From a virus, in the IMG/VR virus record IMGVR_UViG_3300027365_000010, positions 28,454 through 92,453 of that record: a stretch of DNA of 64,000 bases; one strand, written 5' to 3'. Shown here one piece after another: positions 51,297 through 60,466 of this stretch (the stretch's first letter is position 1; every line of letters starts with the position of its first letter). The notes below the pieces were generated by a model. It was not told the DNA's origin. It searched no databases and worked only from the letters and a program-made list of their open reading frames with translations. The position numbers were made by a program, and so were the translations under genes.

Positions 51297-52109
51297 ATGA
51301 AATTTACGAAAAGCTTTATCAAGAAAACACTGAAAGAAACATTGTCAGAAAACACTGATAACACTTCTGTCTATCGAAGCATGTATGGTGTAGTGCCTGA
51401 CTTCGATGGTTTTGGTGACACGAAAGTGAAATCAACACTAAGCTTTAGTAACGAGGGGGCAATTCGTAAGTTTTGTTTCAAAAATGCTCAACGTGATAAC
51501 GCATTGCCATATTTTCTGAAACTCTCAAAGTCTCTTGAAACTCATTTTAAAACGTTTGATGATAATCCTATTGGTGAGCATTGTCTTGTTCTCAGTCTCG
51601 GTCTGAACGAGGAAGATGAGGTTGAAGAACGTGTATTCCTCAACCAAAATGACGTTAGTGAGTATTTCGAGGCTTTGGAGAATCGTATTGTTCTGGTTGT
51701 ACATTTTCTTCCATTCGAGGCACGTGAAATCTATCACCAAGTTCATACTGATGGTCATGATATTGCATACAGCAATACCTTTAGTTTCAAAAACTATAAT
51801 TTCGTCGCAAGGCTTCACCTGAATACTGGGAGATTATTCAACGGTGTTGTGACCAAGACAAAAGATGAATATCTGATCACTATTAGAGATCAGCTTCGTC
51901 GCAAATATGGGACTGACGGCGTTGAAGCAGTAGTGAAAGACCATCCGTTGTCTGGTGGCACTATGATTGAAGGATTTAATATCTACTTCAATAAAATCAG
52001 TGAGGTGAATTATCTCAAACTTATTAAGTTGGATATGGATAAACCCGTTCAGATCAAAGCATCCCTTAAGAGCATTGGGATGACTAAGGATGATAGTTGT
52101 GAAAAATAA
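51297..52109 (+). CDS. Hypothetical protein (270 aa)
   Basis: Soluble (MKFTKSFIKKTLKETLSENTDNTSVYRSM...). Strands LVLSLGLNEEDEVEERVFL and RIVLVVHFLPFEAREIYHQVH. AAAGGA upstream. Lies between membrane-protein genes. Family unknown. Confidence 0.55.
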   Translation: MKFTKSFIKKTLKETLSENTDNTSVYRSMYGVVPDFDGFGDTKVKSTLSFSNEGAIRKFCFKNAQRDNALPYFLKLSKSLETHFKTFDDNPIGEHCLVLSLGLNEEDEVEERVFLNQNDVSEYFEALENRIVLVVHFLPFEAREIYHQVHTDGHDIAYSNTFSFKNYNFVARLHLNTGRLFNGVVTKTKDEYLITIRDQLRRKYGTDGVEAVVKDHPLSGGTMIEGFNIYFNKISEVNYLKLIKLDMDKPVQIKASLKSIGMTKDDSCEK

Positions 52110-52743
52110 TTCATCAATGACAAAGCAGTTGGAAAGATTGCGTGTAGTCGAAAAAGAAAGAAAACTACATATAGTTGATACACTTCGTCTGAATAACGGT
52201 TTACTTAGAACCGAGTTGTACGGTTTTATTAAAAACTTTGATCTGACGAAAGGCACCATGTTATCATGGGTGCTATCAATGGTTTTTTTGGCAATCGGTA
52301 TTCCAAATCTACTTTTCTTTGGGACGAATGCTCTGTTGGTATGGTTTCTACTGGTACAAGCATTGGTTATATGGATTACATTCAAATCTCTTAATGAGTA
52401 TAAAAAGTGGAAGCATTCAATACGGAATGTCAATAGAGCAATTGATGACGGCTTGATTGATTTCAGTACCGAAGCTACATATATCAACGACGTTGCTGTG
52501 CAAACATCTACAATGTCTTCTAAGGATGAAACGGTGGCCGATTCATTGGGGACTATAGCAAAATACATCACGCTGTTTAACTCCAATTATCTACTTGGTG
52601 CAGTTTTACTGAAGCATAAAAACCATACGCCATTTATAATGATTTTTTCTGTGGCATGTCTCTTATTATTCTTGGCGGCGAAAAATGTATTTGTTCTATG
52701 TGCGAGTATTACATTGTTGATTTCGCTTGTATCGTGCTTTTAA
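52090..52743 (+). CDS. Multi-pass membrane protein (217 aa)
   Basis: Basic N-terminus, helix hairpin ~57-100 (MLSWVLSMVFLAIGIPNLLFF, LLVWFLLVQALVIWITF) and a C-terminal hairpin ~177-215 (FIMIFSVACLLLFLAA, VFVLCASITLLISLVSCF). Start overlaps the preceding stop; 52117 is an alternative. Same topology as 50561-51253. Confidence 0.6.
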   Translation: MIVVKNNSSMTKQLERLRVVEKERKLHIVDTLRLNNGLLRTELYGFIKNFDLTKGTMLSWVLSMVFLAIGIPNLLFFGTNALLVWFLLVQALVIWITFKSLNEYKKWKHSIRNVNRAIDDGLIDFSTEATYINDVAVQTSTMSSKDETVADSLGTIAKYITLFNSNYLLGAVLLKHKNHTPFIMIFSVACLLLFLAAKNVFVLCASITLLISLVSCF

Positions 52744-52752
52744 ATACAAGGA

Positions 52753-52869
52753 ATGCTATTTAAAAGTGTTGCTGTATACTTGAGAAGCTTAAAAGAGAGT
52801 TTGCTATCTTCACTATCCGATAATGATGAACATACTGAAACAATGAGTGTATATGATGAATCTGATTGA
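52753..52869 (+). CDS. Possible small protein (38 aa)
   Basis: MLFKSVAVYLRSLKESLLSSLSDNDEHTE... with AAGGA abutting the ATG. Overlaps the next gene start in another frame. Amphipathic; spacing of the ribosome site is poor. Confidence 0.35.
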   Translation: MLFKSVAVYLRSLKESLLSSLSDNDEHTETMSVYDESD

Positions 52870-53353
52870 GCGGTTGTTATCTAAGCGTGTTTCTAAGTTT
52901 ATGCCATGGTATCTTTTCGGAATTGTTATAGGTACGTCCACATATATGGGCGTATCAGGTATAAGTGCTGTATTTTCCATATTTTTAATTTCCACGCTGT
53001 TATCATGCGTTTTGAAGTCGTACTTTGATTACGTGGTCGATCCATCATGCAACTTCGTCATTGATAATGTTCATGACTATATGGATTCTCAATATGGTAG
53101 TAATGCGAGCAATGATGAGTTCAGTCATACTCGGCGGACACGTATTATATACACTATATCCGCCATTTTTAATATAGTGGCGCTTTGTGCGCTGATATTA
53201 ATAATATCTTTTGCGGTAAATAGCATTATTTTTTTGAATATTGACTCGATGGCAGTATCAATGGCTTATGTTGTGATTGCAGTCTTTACATATTATATAA
53301 TCACATTTTTACAGAACGTTAATACTTTAGTAAGTTATAGGAAATTTAGATGA
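52853..53353 (+). CDS. Multi-pass membrane protein (166 aa)
   Basis: Four hydrophobic segments in two hairpins (FGIVIGTSTYMGVSGISAVFSIFLISTLLSC; IFNIVALCALILIISFAVNSIIFL and MAYVVIAVFTYYIITFL). Stop overlaps the next start (ATGA). Start could be the GTG at 52847 or ATG 52856. Third of the local four-helix proteins. Confidence 0.6.
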   Translation: MMNLIERLLSKRVSKFMPWYLFGIVIGTSTYMGVSGISAVFSIFLISTLLSCVLKSYFDYVVDPSCNFVIDNVHDYMDSQYGSNASNDEFSHTRRTRIIYTISAIFNIVALCALILIISFAVNSIIFLNIDSMAVSMAYVVIAVFTYYIITFLQNVNTLVSYRKFR

Positions 53354-54369: not shown

Positions 54370-54963
54370 ATGCTAGTACCTATGGTTATTCAACGCACCT
54401 CTGATGGTGAGCGTTCAATGGACATCTTTTCCCGCCTGCTTGAAGAACGTGTTATCATGTTGACAGGACAGGTAAGTGATGAAATGTCGTCACTGATTTG
54501 TGCACAACTTCTGTATCTGGAAAACCAAGACGCAAATAAAGACATCCATGTTTATATCAACAGTCCGGGTGGTTCGGTCACCGCAGGACTAGCCATGTAC
54601 GATACTATGAAGCATGTGAAGCCTGATATTACCACTGTTGTTACCGGCATGGCAGCATCGATGGGAAGCTTCCTTGCTGCGTGTGGTGGTACTAAAGGCA
54701 AACGTTTCATGCTACCAATGGCAGAGAATATGATTCACCAGCCCTTGGGCGGTTTCCAAGGCCAGTCAAGTGATATCGACATTCATGCGAAACATATTCT
54801 TCGTACACGTGAACGTCTTGAGCGTATTTACGCCGAGTGTACAGGTCGTACTTATGAAGAAGTGAATAAAGCTTGTGAGCGTGACAACTACATGACAGCA
54901 GAAGAAGCAGTAGAATTCGGCCTTGCTGATCAGATTATGTATCCAAGTGATATGAAATCATAA
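54370..54963 (+). CDS. clpP: ClpP serine protease
   Basis: 197 residues, the length of mature ClpP. Catalytic triad S97 (GMAASMG), H123 (MIHQP) and D172 (ERDNYM) are in place, with oxyanion PGGSV and the ALGA-region equivalents. ClpP forms a tetradecameric barrel fed by ClpA/ClpX; the phage copy may mix with host subunits or use host ATPases. No phage Clp ATPase is adjacent. TAGGAG precedes the ATG. Own promoter. Confidence 0.95.
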
Positions 54964-55036: not shown

Positions 55037-55462
55037 ATGTCAGAATTACTTAATACAATCAAAAAAGAACAACTTTTGGCACGTAAAAACGGTGATCAAG
55101 TACGGGCTAAACTTCTTACTACGGTTATTGGAGAAGCGTCACCTGCCGGTAATGGTACTGTGAGTGACAAAGATGTTGAGAAAACTATTGCGGATTTTTA
55201 CAAAAACCTGCGTAAAAATCGTAAGATTTATATTGAACGAAACCAAAGTGTCGATGAAGTTGATGCTGAAATCGCTGTTCTACTAGATTTTATGCCCCCA
55301 CAGCTCACTGTTGACGAAATCAAAGATATTGCCACCGAGTTCATTAGTAAAAATGACATCAAAGCAGTGGGGCCTGTAATGGGCTATTTTTCCAAAGAAT
55401 ATAAAGGAAAGTACTTTGGTGAAGAAGTCTTGGAAGTGGTTGAAGATATTCTTTCACAATAG
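55037..55462 (+). CDS. GatB/YqeY domain protein
   Basis: 141 residues. The pattern of MSELLNTIKKEQLLARKNGDQVRAKLLTTVIGE, YIERNQSVDEVDAEIAVLLDFMPPQLT, and AVGPVMGYFSKEYKGK follows YqeY proteins throughout. YqeY is related to the tail of amidotransferase GatB and may contact tRNA; its cellular role is not settled. ATG has AAGGAAA upstream; a terminator follows. Confidence 0.88.
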   Translation: MSELLNTIKKEQLLARKNGDQVRAKLLTTVIGEASPAGNGTVSDKDVEKTIADFYKNLRKNRKIYIERNQSVDEVDAEIAVLLDFMPPQLTVDEIKDIATEFISKNDIKAVGPVMGYFSKEYKGKYFGEEVLEVVEDILSQ

Positions 55463-55526: not shown

Positions 55527-56588
55527 ATGATTGGATTTATCTGGTTTATTGTAGCAGTTACTATCTTTGCTATTTTTGCACCTTTTGTCATGAGATTCTT
55601 GTTCCCACACCGTGTATTGTGGCGAGAAGTGGCAGCAAGTATCGCATTGTCGATTGTATTCAGTGTTGTATGTTCGTTGGTTGTGATCTATGGCGGTAGT
55701 CTCAACACTGAAATTCTTAACGGAAAGGTTACTAATAAGGCCCAAGAACAGGTTAGCTGTGAACATAGTTACCAAGTATGTTCGGGTAGTGGTGAAAATC
55801 GTGTCTGTACGACGTACTATGAACACTCATACGATTATGATTGGGTAGTACATACAACAGTGGGTGAAATTGTCATTGACCGCGTTGACCGTCAGGGTAC
55901 TAAAGAGCCACCCAGATTCAGTAAAGTTAAAATCGGTGAACACGCCGCAGTGAGTAATACATACGTAGACTATCTCAAAGGCATTGAGAGTTCACTACTT
56001 TATCGAAAGAATCACAAGATTGTGAAAGAATACGAACGACTCATTCCTAGTTATCCAAGGGTATTTGACTATTATCGTACACGTCCTGTTATTTTTTCAG
56101 GCATTTCAGTAGATAATGCAGAACGTAAAATGTACAATGACGCAATGCATGACGTTTTGAAAGAGATTGGTAACAGTAAACAAGTAAATATCATTGTGGT
56201 TATTGTAGATAGTGAAAATCCTGAATTTGCAGAATATCTGCGTAACGACTGGCATAATGGTCGTAAAAATGATCAAATTGTCGTAATCGGTGCGCCGGAA
56301 TATCCTAAAGTAGAATGGTCTTATTCATTTGGTTGGTCTAAAAAACAGGATGTTAACCCATCGATTGACTACGACGTTACGCGTTTGGAACATCTTTCGC
56401 CTGAAGCTCTTGCTGAAACTGTGAAAACAAACGTCGTTAAGCATTTTAAACGCCGCCCTATGGAAGAGTTTAAAAGCTATCTTTGGGAAACCGAGATCGA
56501 GCTTTGGAAATTTGTTTTAGTCTTTTTCCTACAGATTGCGTTTAATGCGGGACTGTCATATTGGTGGTATCGGAATGACATCTATTAA
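55527..56588 (+). CDS. TPM-domain-like membrane protein
   Basis: 353 residues. Two N-terminal helices (~3-22, ~36-58), a Cys-containing extracytoplasmic segment (SCEHSYQVCSGSGENRVCTTYY), then VNIIVVIVDSENPEFAEYLRNDWHNGRKNDQIVVIGAPE-x-WSYSFGW, which matches the TPM (YgcG-like) domain pattern, and a C-terminal helix (~326-348). TPM proteins pair with LemA in bacteria, and LemA is two genes downstream, which strengthens the call. AAGGAA precedes the ATG. Confidence 0.6.
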   Translation: MIGFIWFIVAVTIFAIFAPFVMRFLFPHRVLWREVAASIALSIVFSVVCSLVVIYGGSLNTEILNGKVTNKAQEQVSCEHSYQVCSGSGENRVCTTYYEHSYDYDWVVHTTVGEIVIDRVDRQGTKEPPRFSKVKIGEHAAVSNTYVDYLKGIESSLLYRKNHKIVKEYERLIPSYPRVFDYYRTRPVIFSGISVDNAERKMYNDAMHDVLKEIGNSKQVNIIVVIVDSENPEFAEYLRNDWHNGRKNDQIVVIGAPEYPKVEWSYSFGWSKKQDVNPSIDYDVTRLEHLSPEALAETVKTNVVKHFKRRPMEEFKSYLWETEIELWKFVLVFFLQIAFNAGLSYWWYRNDIY

Positions 56589-56949
56589 GCACATAGATAA
56601 TGCTCTCAATACATGGGAGTATTATCGAGATTTCGATATAGAGCTGTGTGGCGAATGTACCCGATTGTCACAAACTATTCTCAATCGAATTTCCCCAGAG
56701 TTAGTTCGTGAGCGCTTAAATTTATGTGGTTGTAAAGATAAACATGCGGAGAAACATATAAAAGAAATAAAAAAAGAGATAGGTAGGTGTGGTGTAATTG
56801 ATGATGTATCGATTGAAGTTTCATCATTTGCCTTGCCATTTGTACGAGTATATGTTTTAATATTCAAAGATAACCCTGAATCGCTGGGATTATTTAAACT
56901 TAAAAACTTAGATAAAAAATATAGGAAGGTTTATAATGAGTGCACTTAA
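56575..56949 (+). CDS. Hypothetical protein (124 aa)
   Basis: Cysteine-containing small protein (IELCGECTRLSQTIL, LNLCGCKDKHAEKH, IGRCG) between the TPM-like and LemA genes, overlapping both. Two CxxC/CxC pairs could bind zinc. The start at 56575 overlaps the TPM-like gene end. Function unknown, likely tied to the same membrane system. Confidence 0.55.
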   Translation: MTSIKHIDNALNTWEYYRDFDIELCGECTRLSQTILNRISPELVRERLNLCGCKDKHAEKHIKEIKKEIGRCGVIDDVSIEVSSFALPFVRVYVLIFKDNPESLGLFKLKNLDKKYRKVYNECT

Positions 56950-57505
56950 AATAACAGGTATTGTATTTGCTTCAGTCTTTGCCCTACTACTGGTAATTGG
57001 TGTTTCATTTGGAGGCATGTATGTCTCATACAATGATCGAGCGGTCGATCTAGAATCACAGATTGTTGCACAGCATAAGGATTTGCAGAACATCAAATCC
57101 AACTACACATTGAAGATTCAAGAGATCGTGCAAGTTACCGACAAGTATAAGGACGATCTACGAGAGATTGTAGATGCAACGTTTGAAGGCCGTTACGGAA
57201 GCAATGGTTCCCAAGCCATGTTCCAATGGATTCAAGAACAAAATATTAATCTTGACCCGAGTGTGTACAAAGAAATTCAAGTCGCCATTAAAGCGGGTCG
57301 TGCAGAGTTTCAAAACGCGCAAACTCGATTTATCGATACAAAACGTATTTACAATCGAGAACTTAATAGTTTTGTGAGCGGCTTTTTCATGTCGAGTGTC
57401 AATGACTTTCCAAGTATTAACCTTGATGAATACAACACTATTGTTGCCGAATCAACACGCCGAGAATTTGAATCTGGCACAGATAGTGCGATCAAAATCA
57501 ACTAA
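56936..57505 (+). CDS. LemA family membrane protein
   Basis: 189 residues. Membrane helix ~7-30 (IVFASVFALLLVIGVSFGGMYV), then YNDRAVDLESQIVAQHKDLQNIKSNYT, a long helical domain, and NRELNSFVSGFFMSSVNDFP, matching LemA (N-x-L...Y-N...V-x-x-YN-x-x-x-x-x-FP). Anchored in the inner membrane with a periplasmic helical bundle. Overlaps the upstream gene by 14 bases; ends in a terminator. Confidence 0.82.
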   Translation: MSALKITGIVFASVFALLLVIGVSFGGMYVSYNDRAVDLESQIVAQHKDLQNIKSNYTLKIQEIVQVTDKYKDDLREIVDATFEGRYGSNGSQAMFQWIQEQNINLDPSVYKEIQVAIKAGRAEFQNAQTRFIDTKRIYNRELNSFVSGFFMSSVNDFPSINLDEYNTIVAESTRREFESGTDSAIKIN

Positions 57506-59098: not shown

Positions 59099-60466
59099 AT
59101 GAACTATAATAACTTTTTTCTACTGAGTGATTCTTATAAGCTTTCCCACTTTGAACAATATCCTGAAGGTACCACTAAAGTCTATTCATATATAGAAAGT
59201 CGTGGTGGTAAATTTGACGAGCTACTATTTTTCGGTCTTCAGAAGTTTCTTGAAGATATCAATAATAATTTCCCAACAATGCAAGACGTTGAAGAAGCGC
59301 GTATCTTCTCAGAGGCACATGGTGTGAAATTCAACTACGAAGGTGCAAAAGCCTTGGTCGAACTGGGGTACTTCCCTATCAAAATACGCGCTGTCAAGGA
59401 AGGCATGATGGTACCTGTTAAAAATGTTCTAGCGGTTATTGAAAACACCTTACCTGAATTTTATTGGCTTCCTTCCTTCTTAGAGCCTAGAATTCTTAAG
59501 TCAGTATGGTATCCAACTACGGTAGCTACGTATAGTCGTGAATGTAAGTCTATAATTAAAAAATATATGGAACTTACTTCTGATACTACGGATGGTCTCG
59601 AATTCAAACTTCACGATTTCGGCTTCCGTAGCGCGTCTAGTGATGAAAGTGCTGGTATTGCTGGTGCAGCACATCTAGTTAACTTTTGGGGCACTGACAC
59701 TATGTTAGGCATTCTAACAGCCATGCGTTACTATGACAGTGGTGTATGTGGATATAGTGTTGTTGCGGCAGAACACAGTACTATCACTTCACACGGTAAA
59801 GAAAACGAAGCGGCTGTATACGAACAGCTTATTGACGATAACCCAACTGGTATACTATCCGTCGTTTCAGACAGCTATGATATCTACAATGCGGTGTCTA
59901 ACATTTTTGGTAAGCAGCTCAAGCAAAAGATTCTTGACCGTGATGGCGTATTCGTTGTTCGACCAGATAGTGGGAACCCTATTGAAATGGTATATGATGT
60001 TATCTCTTTATTGGCAGAGAACTTCGGATCATACAGAAATTCAAAAGGATATATGGTCCTGAATGACAAAGTTCGAGTCCTTCAAGGTGATGGAATTGAT
60101 ATAGAAATGGTACGCCGAATCTGTGAAAATCTGAAAATAAACGGATGGTCCACCGACAATGTAGTCTTTGGTATGGGTGGTAAGCTACTACAAGATCATA
60201 ACCGTGATACACAGAAATTCGCGTTCAAGTGTTCATACATCGAGGTTAATGGTAAAGGACGCGATGTATTCAAAGATCCTGTGACTGATCGTGTCAAGGT
60301 TTCTAAGAAAGGAAGGCTATCACTTGTTAGAACTGAGGATGGGTTTAGAACGATTCCAGAATCTGAAGCCGGTGAGTATGATTTGCTCGAAACCGTATAT
60401 CAAGATGGTATTATTAAGCGCAAGCAAATCTTTGATGAAATACGACAACTAGCTGCAATTAAGTAA
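59099..60466 (+). CDS. nadV: Nicotinamide phosphoribosyltransferase (NAMPT)
   Basis: 455 residues. FFLLSDSYKLSHFEQYPEGTTKVYSYIESRGG is the NAMPT N-terminus in order. VVAAEHSTITSHG carries the phosphorylated histidine (human H247), VVRPDSGNP the substrate Arg/Asp, and FGMGGKLLQ the phosphate loop. It makes NMN from nicotinamide and PRPP, the first step of NAD salvage that phages such as KVP40 encode with NatV. No NatV is in the window. A structured leader and double promoter precede it. Confidence 0.95.
   Translation: MNYNNFFLLSDSYKLSHFEQYPEGTTKVYSYIESRGGKFDELLFFGLQKFLEDINNNFPTMQDVEEARIFSEAHGVKFNYEGAKALVELGYFPIKIRAVKEGMMVPVKNVLAVIENTLPEFYWLPSFLEPRILKSVWYPTTVATYSRECKSIIKKYMELTSDTTDGLEFKLHDFGFRSASSDESAGIAGAAHLVNFWGTDTMLGILTAMRYYDSGVCGYSVVAAEHSTITSHGKENEAAVYEQLIDDNPTGILSVVSDSYDIYNAVSNIFGKQLKQKILDRDGVFVVRPDSGNPIEMVYDVISLLAENFGSYRNSKGYMVLNDKVRVLQGDGIDIEMVRRICENLKINGWSTDNVVFGMGGKLLQDHNRDTQKFAFKCSYIEVNGKGRDVFKDPVTDRVKVSKKGRLSLVRTEDGFRTIPESEAGEYDLLETVYQDGIIKRKQIFDEIRQLAAIK

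Follow-up and report, generated by a model that had tools for sequence, protein, structure and literature searches.

Organization of the locus

The window, by which the whole stretch of DNA analysed is meant, is the final 64 kb of a 92,453-base IMG/VR virus record. At positions 55527-57505 it carries three genes on the plus strand, arranged head to tail and referred to here as T, the middle cysteine gene and L (Table 1). Each of the two junctions, T/middle gene and middle gene/L, is an overlap of 14 nt, and both the coordinates and the overlaps given in the initial annotation were verified. The small protein with CxxC and CxC pairs that had been described between T and L is also present; the best start of its gene is the ATG at 56575, whereas a TTG at 56536 would extend the product to 137 aa. 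T matches its PHROG family over the full profile length (E=6.9e-91, residues 8-351) and so does L (E=5.9e-64, residues 8-188), which is far beyond chance, and the two proteins belong to these families.

Table 1. Position of the T, middle and L genes and of the segments of T in the window.
Feature	Position	Strand	Description	Basis
Gene T	55527-56588	+	353-aa membrane protein, predicted TPM fold	phrog_2087
T N-terminal helices, 2-25 and 32-56 (residues 2-56)	55530-55694	+	Predicted helices	AlphaFold model
T beta domain, residues 59-147	55701-55967	+	Cysteine-bearing loop with C78, C85 and C94	Model, alignment
T TPM-fold domain (predicted), residues 166-310	56022-56456	+	N248 invariant in the family alignments	Foldseek, VIA, sub-threshold Pfam
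T C-terminal helix, residues 326-350	56502-56576	+	Predicted helix	AlphaFold model
Middle gene	56575-56949	+	124 aa (ATG start), CGEC and CGC	
Gene L	56936-57505	+	189 aa, LemA-related, N-terminal helix and helical bundle	phrog_1383

The neighbours of T in the window include genes for a ClpP-type protease (54370-54963; Pfam E=3.1e-77) and a YqeY-like protein (55037-55462; E=1.1e-13). Further upstream, at 52090-53353, two adjoining proteins of 217 and 168 aa contain hydrophobic stretches, and neither has a significant family in Pfam or PHROGs (best E 0.0096 and 0.023).

Domain composition and predicted fold of T

Two larger alignments were used, A5 with 84 members for T and A6 with 85 members for L. 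Near-duplicates above 85% identity were removed from both beforehand, and loci lacking an ATG close to the predicted start position were dropped; doubtful starts led to the exclusion of L163 and L173 from A5 and of L178 from A6. The smaller alignments A1 and A2 contain 21 and 22 sequences picked for diversity.

The AlphaFold model of T, built from 84 sequences, is confident (pLDDT 94.5, pTM 0.87). The two N-terminal helices may be read as membrane helices with a basic loop on the inner side, as the loop at residues 23-38 carries on average 2.57 K/R and 1.33 D/E in the 84 sequences. This topology is not certain, because residues 57-72, directly after the second helix, still contain 1.7 K/R on average. 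The helix near the C-terminus is likewise a predicted membrane helix. In the beta domain the alignment contains seven common cysteine columns, three of which are occupied in T of the window, and these cysteines may form disulfides. The structural matches of this domain are weak and resemble folds that are presumably of the OB type.

The presence of a TPM-like segment in the 353-aa protein, suggested by the initial annotation, is borne out mainly by the structural comparison. The top Foldseek match of the T model was 2kpt (E=1.8e-3, prob 1.00), and rows 1-7 of the VIA comparison were chains of the TPM type (Z 9.2-7.9, rmsd 3.2-3.8, 123-132 aligned residues); among them the title of 7tbr carries the TPM label, and the remaining chains are assumed to be of the same type. 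They were followed by a mycobacterial supercomplex subunit (Z 7.7-7.5) and, from 6.5 down, by mostly unrelated structures. In VIA, Z values of 7 to 8 are often attained by models lacking a clear match. The values of 8 to 9 obtained for T are only moderately above that level, and the agreement of the top rows therefore outweighs the Z value itself. At the sequence level, the Pfam TPM model gave 14.8 bits for residues 206-258 of the window T, which is a real but sub-threshold match (curated cut-off 22.1). Across the T alignment TPM was the most frequent Pfam family, with 14 of the 84 members matching at E<=1 (best 1.9e-4), and hhalign of T against bacterial TPM proteins returned a weak match on the same local stretch (probability 13.6, E=0.0021). 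Only three of 20 bacterial TPM proteins scored clearly above 400 shuffles with the T profile, and this profile found no TPM chain among the PDB sequences at E<=1. Since the sequence support alone is weak, the TPM assignment is based on the fold together with the same local stretch, and T is predicted to have a TPM fold. The GxGLE strand motif, taken from the bacterial TPM alignment, occurs in none of the 84 phage T proteins versus 16 of the 20 bacterial TPM proteins. Phosphatase or metal-binding activity has been reported for some TPM members; because the GxGLE motif is missing, no enzymatic activity is claimed for T.

Relationship of L to LemA

The initial annotation regarded the LemA identity of L as clear. 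With the L profile, built from A6, the best match among PDB sequences was 2ETD, a Thermotoga LemA structure (E=3.1e-5; the next match had E=0.93), which a smaller L set found with E=0.0097. Aligned by hhalign to 19 bacterial LemA proteins, L reached a probability of 96.9 (E=1.8e-10), and all 19 scored 12.5-28.9 bits with the L profile, as compared with at most 7.4 bits for 380 shuffles. The Pfam LemA model did not match the window L at E<=1; it matched 22 of the 85 A6 members at this level (best 8e-5), and for an earlier L set LemA was absent among the 25 Pfam families listed, which reach down to families found in single members. The pattern L[IV]P[NK], which represents the RRxDLIPNL signature read off the bacterial LemA alignment, was present in none of the 85 phage L proteins and in all 19 bacterial LemA proteins, and the same was true of the LIPN and QxxRR motifs.

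The L model is all-helical (pLDDT 88.2), with a long N-terminal helix that has a hydrophobic start. In VIA, 2etd was at rank 3 (Z 7.9, rmsd 4.5, 122 aligned residues), with unrelated bundles having a similar Z. In Foldseek, where helical bundles match widely, it was at rank 21 (prob 0.60, E=1.6) and had the highest probability among the 50 matches listed. Judged from the profile comparisons, L is a divergent LemA relative, with homology extending over the body of the protein. It is described as LemA-related and not as a LemA family member because it lacks both the Pfam match and the motifs LIPN and QxxRR; the relatedness noted earlier is thus retained, and only the firmness with which it had been stated was excessive. 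In one GenBank record, that of Salmonella phage Guerrero, L already bears the name "LemA". A partial NCBIfam match of the window L to a SecDF variant (E=1.3e-4, 19.8 bits, cut-off 400) was dismissed as a chance similarity of helices.

Conservation of the T-L pair in phages

In a protein-versus-DNA search of 50,697 phage records, T was found in 452 and L in 463, with nearly equal counts for the commonest organism names. The opened records with the pair include Ackermannviridae, Straboviridae, Demerecviridae, ICP1 and several jumbo lineages, and the matches listed (60 per search) exceed 103 kb in length with two exceptions, which have 6,049 and 85,722 bases. In IMG/VR, T lay upstream of L on the same strand in 73 of the 74 loci found with L, the remaining locus beginning 450 bases from the contig end, and L lay downstream of T in all 80 loci found with T; the two lists share some contigs. 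The same order, T then L, was seen in 18 of 20 phage records picked for diversity. The median gap between the genes was 16 bases in the L loci and 19 bases in the T loci (medians of 3 to 19 with the phage records included), and it exceeded 60 bases in 15 of 73 and 17 of 80 IMG/VR loci and in two of 18 phage records. Of the other two, a gut phage fragment (L020, 2102-3766) has the reversed order. In the second, the circular genome of Lak-B7 (MK250026), the two genes lie at 89.5 kb and 494 kb, about 404 kb or, the other way round, about 146 kb apart, which means that adjacency is not obligatory. Moreover, T and L co-vary: the distance matrices of 103 pairs, seven of them bacterial, were correlated with r=0.638, to which common descent contributes, and the best of 999 permutations reached 0.184. 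T and L are a conserved pair in large phages, and their linkage is close to strict.

Conservation of the three-gene order, which the initial annotation had put forward as a check, holds for T and L and does not extend to the gene between them. None of the 50,697 phage records matched the middle protein at better than E=3, Pfam, PHROGs, PADLOC and NCBIfam gave nothing below E=0.07, and an IMG/VR scan, which detects close relatives only, returned an identical contig alone. Among 265 loci a single non-identical relative was found, an 84-aa ORF without the CxxC pair (E=7.4e-11) in the nearest relative of the window (L027; T 65% and L 83% identical). Because this ORF is at the same place, the middle gene is probably real. 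No paralogues of it were found within the window, and at the other loci T and L nearly touch or have unrelated small ORFs between them. The middle gene is a lineage-specific local insertion and does not belong to the conserved T-L pair. A three-part membrane system in which the cysteine protein serves as a linker, as first envisaged, would agree with the overlaps in the window and with the related ORF in L027; it is highly improbable given how rarely the middle gene accompanies T and L, and that the one relative lacks the CxxC pair.

LemA-TPM genes and phage-type pairs in bacteria

The bacterial sample comprised 60 genomes from the phylum to which a MAG with the title Proteobacteria belongs. 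Of these, 48 contain LemA and 15 contain TPM, and in all 15 TPM genomes the TPM match is preceded on the same strand by a LemA match at a distance of no more than about 340 bp. The parallel drawn earlier with the bacterial LemA-TPM association is therefore confirmed as to adjacency, with the gene order being opposite.

Phage-type pairs also occur in bacterial MAG and genome contigs (L180/L261, L181/L262, L182, L183, L259 and L260). When GTDB genome contigs were scanned with an L pattern, five MAG loci were returned, all five with T beside L, and profile searches with T found four of 385 genomes of one class and three of 379 of one phylum, one of them only at E=5e-4. The surroundings of some copies are chromosome-like, with dnaX in L182, the flagellar gene for FliG in L260 and a histidine kinase in L259; the pair in L260 is distant and has the order L then T. 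Some of the MAG copies may be misbinned phage contigs. Cation-transporter neighbours were present at three of the seven bacterial loci viewed. Two alphaproteobacterial loci share similar-looking neighbours, of which those tested were a Cation_efflux protein preceding T in L181 and a Na_H_Exchanger protein nearby in L261. In L183, L is followed by a Na/Ca exchanger and, two genes after L, by a DUF475/TerC protein. The tree, from which L173 and L034 were left out, unites three alphaproteobacterial copies (support 0.984) and joins another bacterial copy to IMG/VR contigs (0.999); two further placements have poor support. These groupings suggest an exchange of T-L between phages and bacteria.

Presence and absence of the pair in ICP1

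In ICP1 2017_DRC_32, an insertion (L004, 2911-5520) contains, besides T and L, a small ORF and a gene for a serine recombinase (Resolvase, E=7.3e-10), whereas in the ICP1 reference (NC_015157, 16123-16231) the flanking genes are 107 bp apart. At least eight of 82 ICP1-type records hold at least 80% of the T-L region, and 52 others among the matches listed have the flanks only, about 20% of the region. The phage-record search likewise showed T in eight ICP1 records among the matches listed. Within ICP1, T and L together with the recombinase gene are polymorphic by insertion or deletion. Asian and Congolese ICP1 isolates are set apart by a hypervariable early region (PMC9040626, section 3.1), and the cassette probably lies in it.

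Gene neighbourhoods

In two Ackermannviridae, Kevin and Det7, rIIA is located four to seven genes after L. The neighbours in S13 include rnlA, alc, pseT and an annotated Rz-like spanin pair, and tRNA genes are found near T-L in some phages; head or tail genes were not found in the phage T-L neighbourhoods viewed. In the jumbo phages fENko-Kae01 and BF, TelA-type genes with toxic-ion or tellurite-resistance annotations precede T by two or three genes. TelA-type ORFs are located at L017 1-590 and L023 1-275, with a related ORF at L015 1-637, and this upstream family was present in only three of 97 clustered loci. The clustering covered ORFs of at least 70 aa in flanks of a few kb at these 97 loci plus the window. 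No common third partner of T-L emerged from it, as the families occurred in at most seven of the 97 loci plus the window. A cluster of 18 loci was set aside, since its representative is a minus-strand ORF overlapping L, from which the cluster was taken to be an artefact. A protein at 59099-60466 of the window, which reads as a putative nicotinamide phosphoribosyltransferase, belongs to a cluster present in five loci including the window.

Discussion

Although widespread among bacteria, LemA and TPM proteins are poorly understood. The putative function tentatively preferred here, which is quite possible but falls short of being probable, is that T and L form a host-envelope protection module, a phage branch of the LemA-TPM partnership. 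T and L would be two inner-membrane proteins with their folded parts facing the periplasm, probably in one complex. T would consist of a pair of membrane helices at the N-terminus, a beta domain stabilised by cysteines, the TPM domain and a further membrane helix at the C-terminus, and L would be a membrane-anchored helical bundle. Both would be made during the takeover of the host, a timing suggested by the neighbouring rIIA, rnlA, alc, pseT and tRNA genes and the lack of head or tail genes among the neighbours. They would keep the inner membrane and the ion gradients of the infected cell intact while a large phage completes its cycle, and they may also hinder the DNA entry of competing phages. 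The close pairing of T and L, their co-variation and the resemblance to the bacterial operon speak for this proposal, and the separated genes of Lak-B7 speak against it. The cation transporters, TerC and tellurite-type neighbours provide an ion- and envelope-related context that was counted in favour of an envelope role; against it stand the presence of transporters at only some of the bacterial loci and the absence of a common third partner in phages. In Flavobacterium columnare lacking sppA, both lemA and a gene for a TPM-domain protein are reported to be up-regulated (PMC13236525). The literature search turned up no experiments that address the function of T or L from a phage. A wider form of this proposal, possible but doubtful, would make T-L a portable envelope-protection system, a sister branch of bacterial LemA-TPM that exists as a two-gene unit common to large phages and some bacteria. 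It would guard the inner membrane against depolarisation or phage-triggered envelope damage and would be gained and lost within ICP1 through an arms race.

The effect of dedicated superinfection exclusion, in which T-L in the inner membrane would block the genome entry of other phages and play no role in the phage's own cycle, would resemble that of T4 Imm and Sp. Two proteins of membrane type in takeover-type neighbourhoods would suit such a role, as would the presence/absence polymorphism in ICP1. The TelA-type genes near T-L in some loci point the same way, since Iyer et al. (2021) propose superinfection exclusion for the TelA/Ter genes of jumbo phages (PMC7824862). However, copies with chromosomal neighbours in bacterial contigs argue against it, and PADLOC gave no match at E<=0.1 for T, the middle protein or the window L. 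The L of Det7 matched part of LeoBC (E=1.1e-4, 19.5 bits) and PDC-S53 (0.015), which is read as coiled-coil similarity. This explanation is considered unlikely. Lysis control, with the pair acting as a spanin, a holin regulator or a lysis-inhibition device, is improbable. The rIIA genes downstream, the Rz-like spanins near the pair in S13 and the apparent membrane-spanning nature of T with a putative periplasmic domain speak for it. Against this, the matches of the window L to holin and spanin families are insignificant (E 0.031-0.15), S13 already has its annotated spanin pair alongside, and lysis proteins are not known to adopt a TPM or LemA fold.

The proposal that L, and perhaps T, is a virion protein derives from phrog_1383, whose PHROG category is "head and packaging", and from several record labels; moreover, a database note gives the L of fENko-Kae01 as identified by LC-MS/MS. 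According to the corresponding paper, however, that sample was a washed, ultrafiltered lysate with 220 phage proteins including polymerases and kinases, and its authors consider that proteins of the latter types may be injected (PMC11218385). Furthermore, the gene neighbourhoods seen are not structural, and the N-terminal helix of L with its hydrophobic start also disagrees with a place in the virion, which is regarded as improbable. L is annotated as "virion structural protein" in many phage records, and in Serratia phage Yaphecito (L019, 2459-3040) it is a "putative major capsid protein"; both labels are probably propagated mislabels.

Summarizing, the presented results describe a partnership of the LemA-TPM type that hundreds of large phages carry as two closely spaced genes, and they cast doubt on two labels given in many phage records, "virion structural protein" and "major capsid protein". 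The natural presence and absence of the pair in the well-studied ICP1 lineage offers a compact and genetically tractable way into its role.

Among the matches listed, in titles and abstracts of open-licence PMC papers, no phage LemA-TPM pair was found. LemA in temperate phages is not new, as two papers report it. One lists a LemA family protein in Lactococcus garvieae prophage PLg-TB25, with a 269-aa "membrane protein" after it (PMC5431838), and the other mentions LemA for the Enterococcus phage VEsP-1 group (PMC9865981). The PLg-TB25 protein appears to be of the bacterial type because it shares 75% identity with an ordinary LemA family protein of L. lactis (PMC5431838). Both cases share with L that they are phage-borne; they are set apart by the descriptions available, which concern temperate phages and mention no conserved TPM pair. 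In PHROGs, family 2087 (T) is listed without function and family 1383 (L) as "virion structural protein", the latter being unsupported here. The TelA/Ter genes of jumbo phages (PMC7824862, whose text contains neither "LemA" nor "TPM") are near T in fENko-Kae01 and BF, and a DUF475/TerC gene follows L in L183. A close known counterpart is the bacterial lemA-TPM operon (PF04011 and PF04536), which resembles T-L in consisting of two adjoining genes on one strand, one for a helical protein anchored in the membrane and the other for a protein of the TPM fold, predicted in the case of T. The order of the genes differs: T precedes L in nearly all of the phage loci viewed, and LemA precedes TPM in the sampled bacteria. 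Moreover, phage T has additional N-terminal helices and the cysteine-bearing beta domain as compared with bacterial TPM, and phage L lacks the LIPN and QxxRR motifs of bacterial LemA, as phage T lacks the GxGLE motif of most bacterial TPM proteins.
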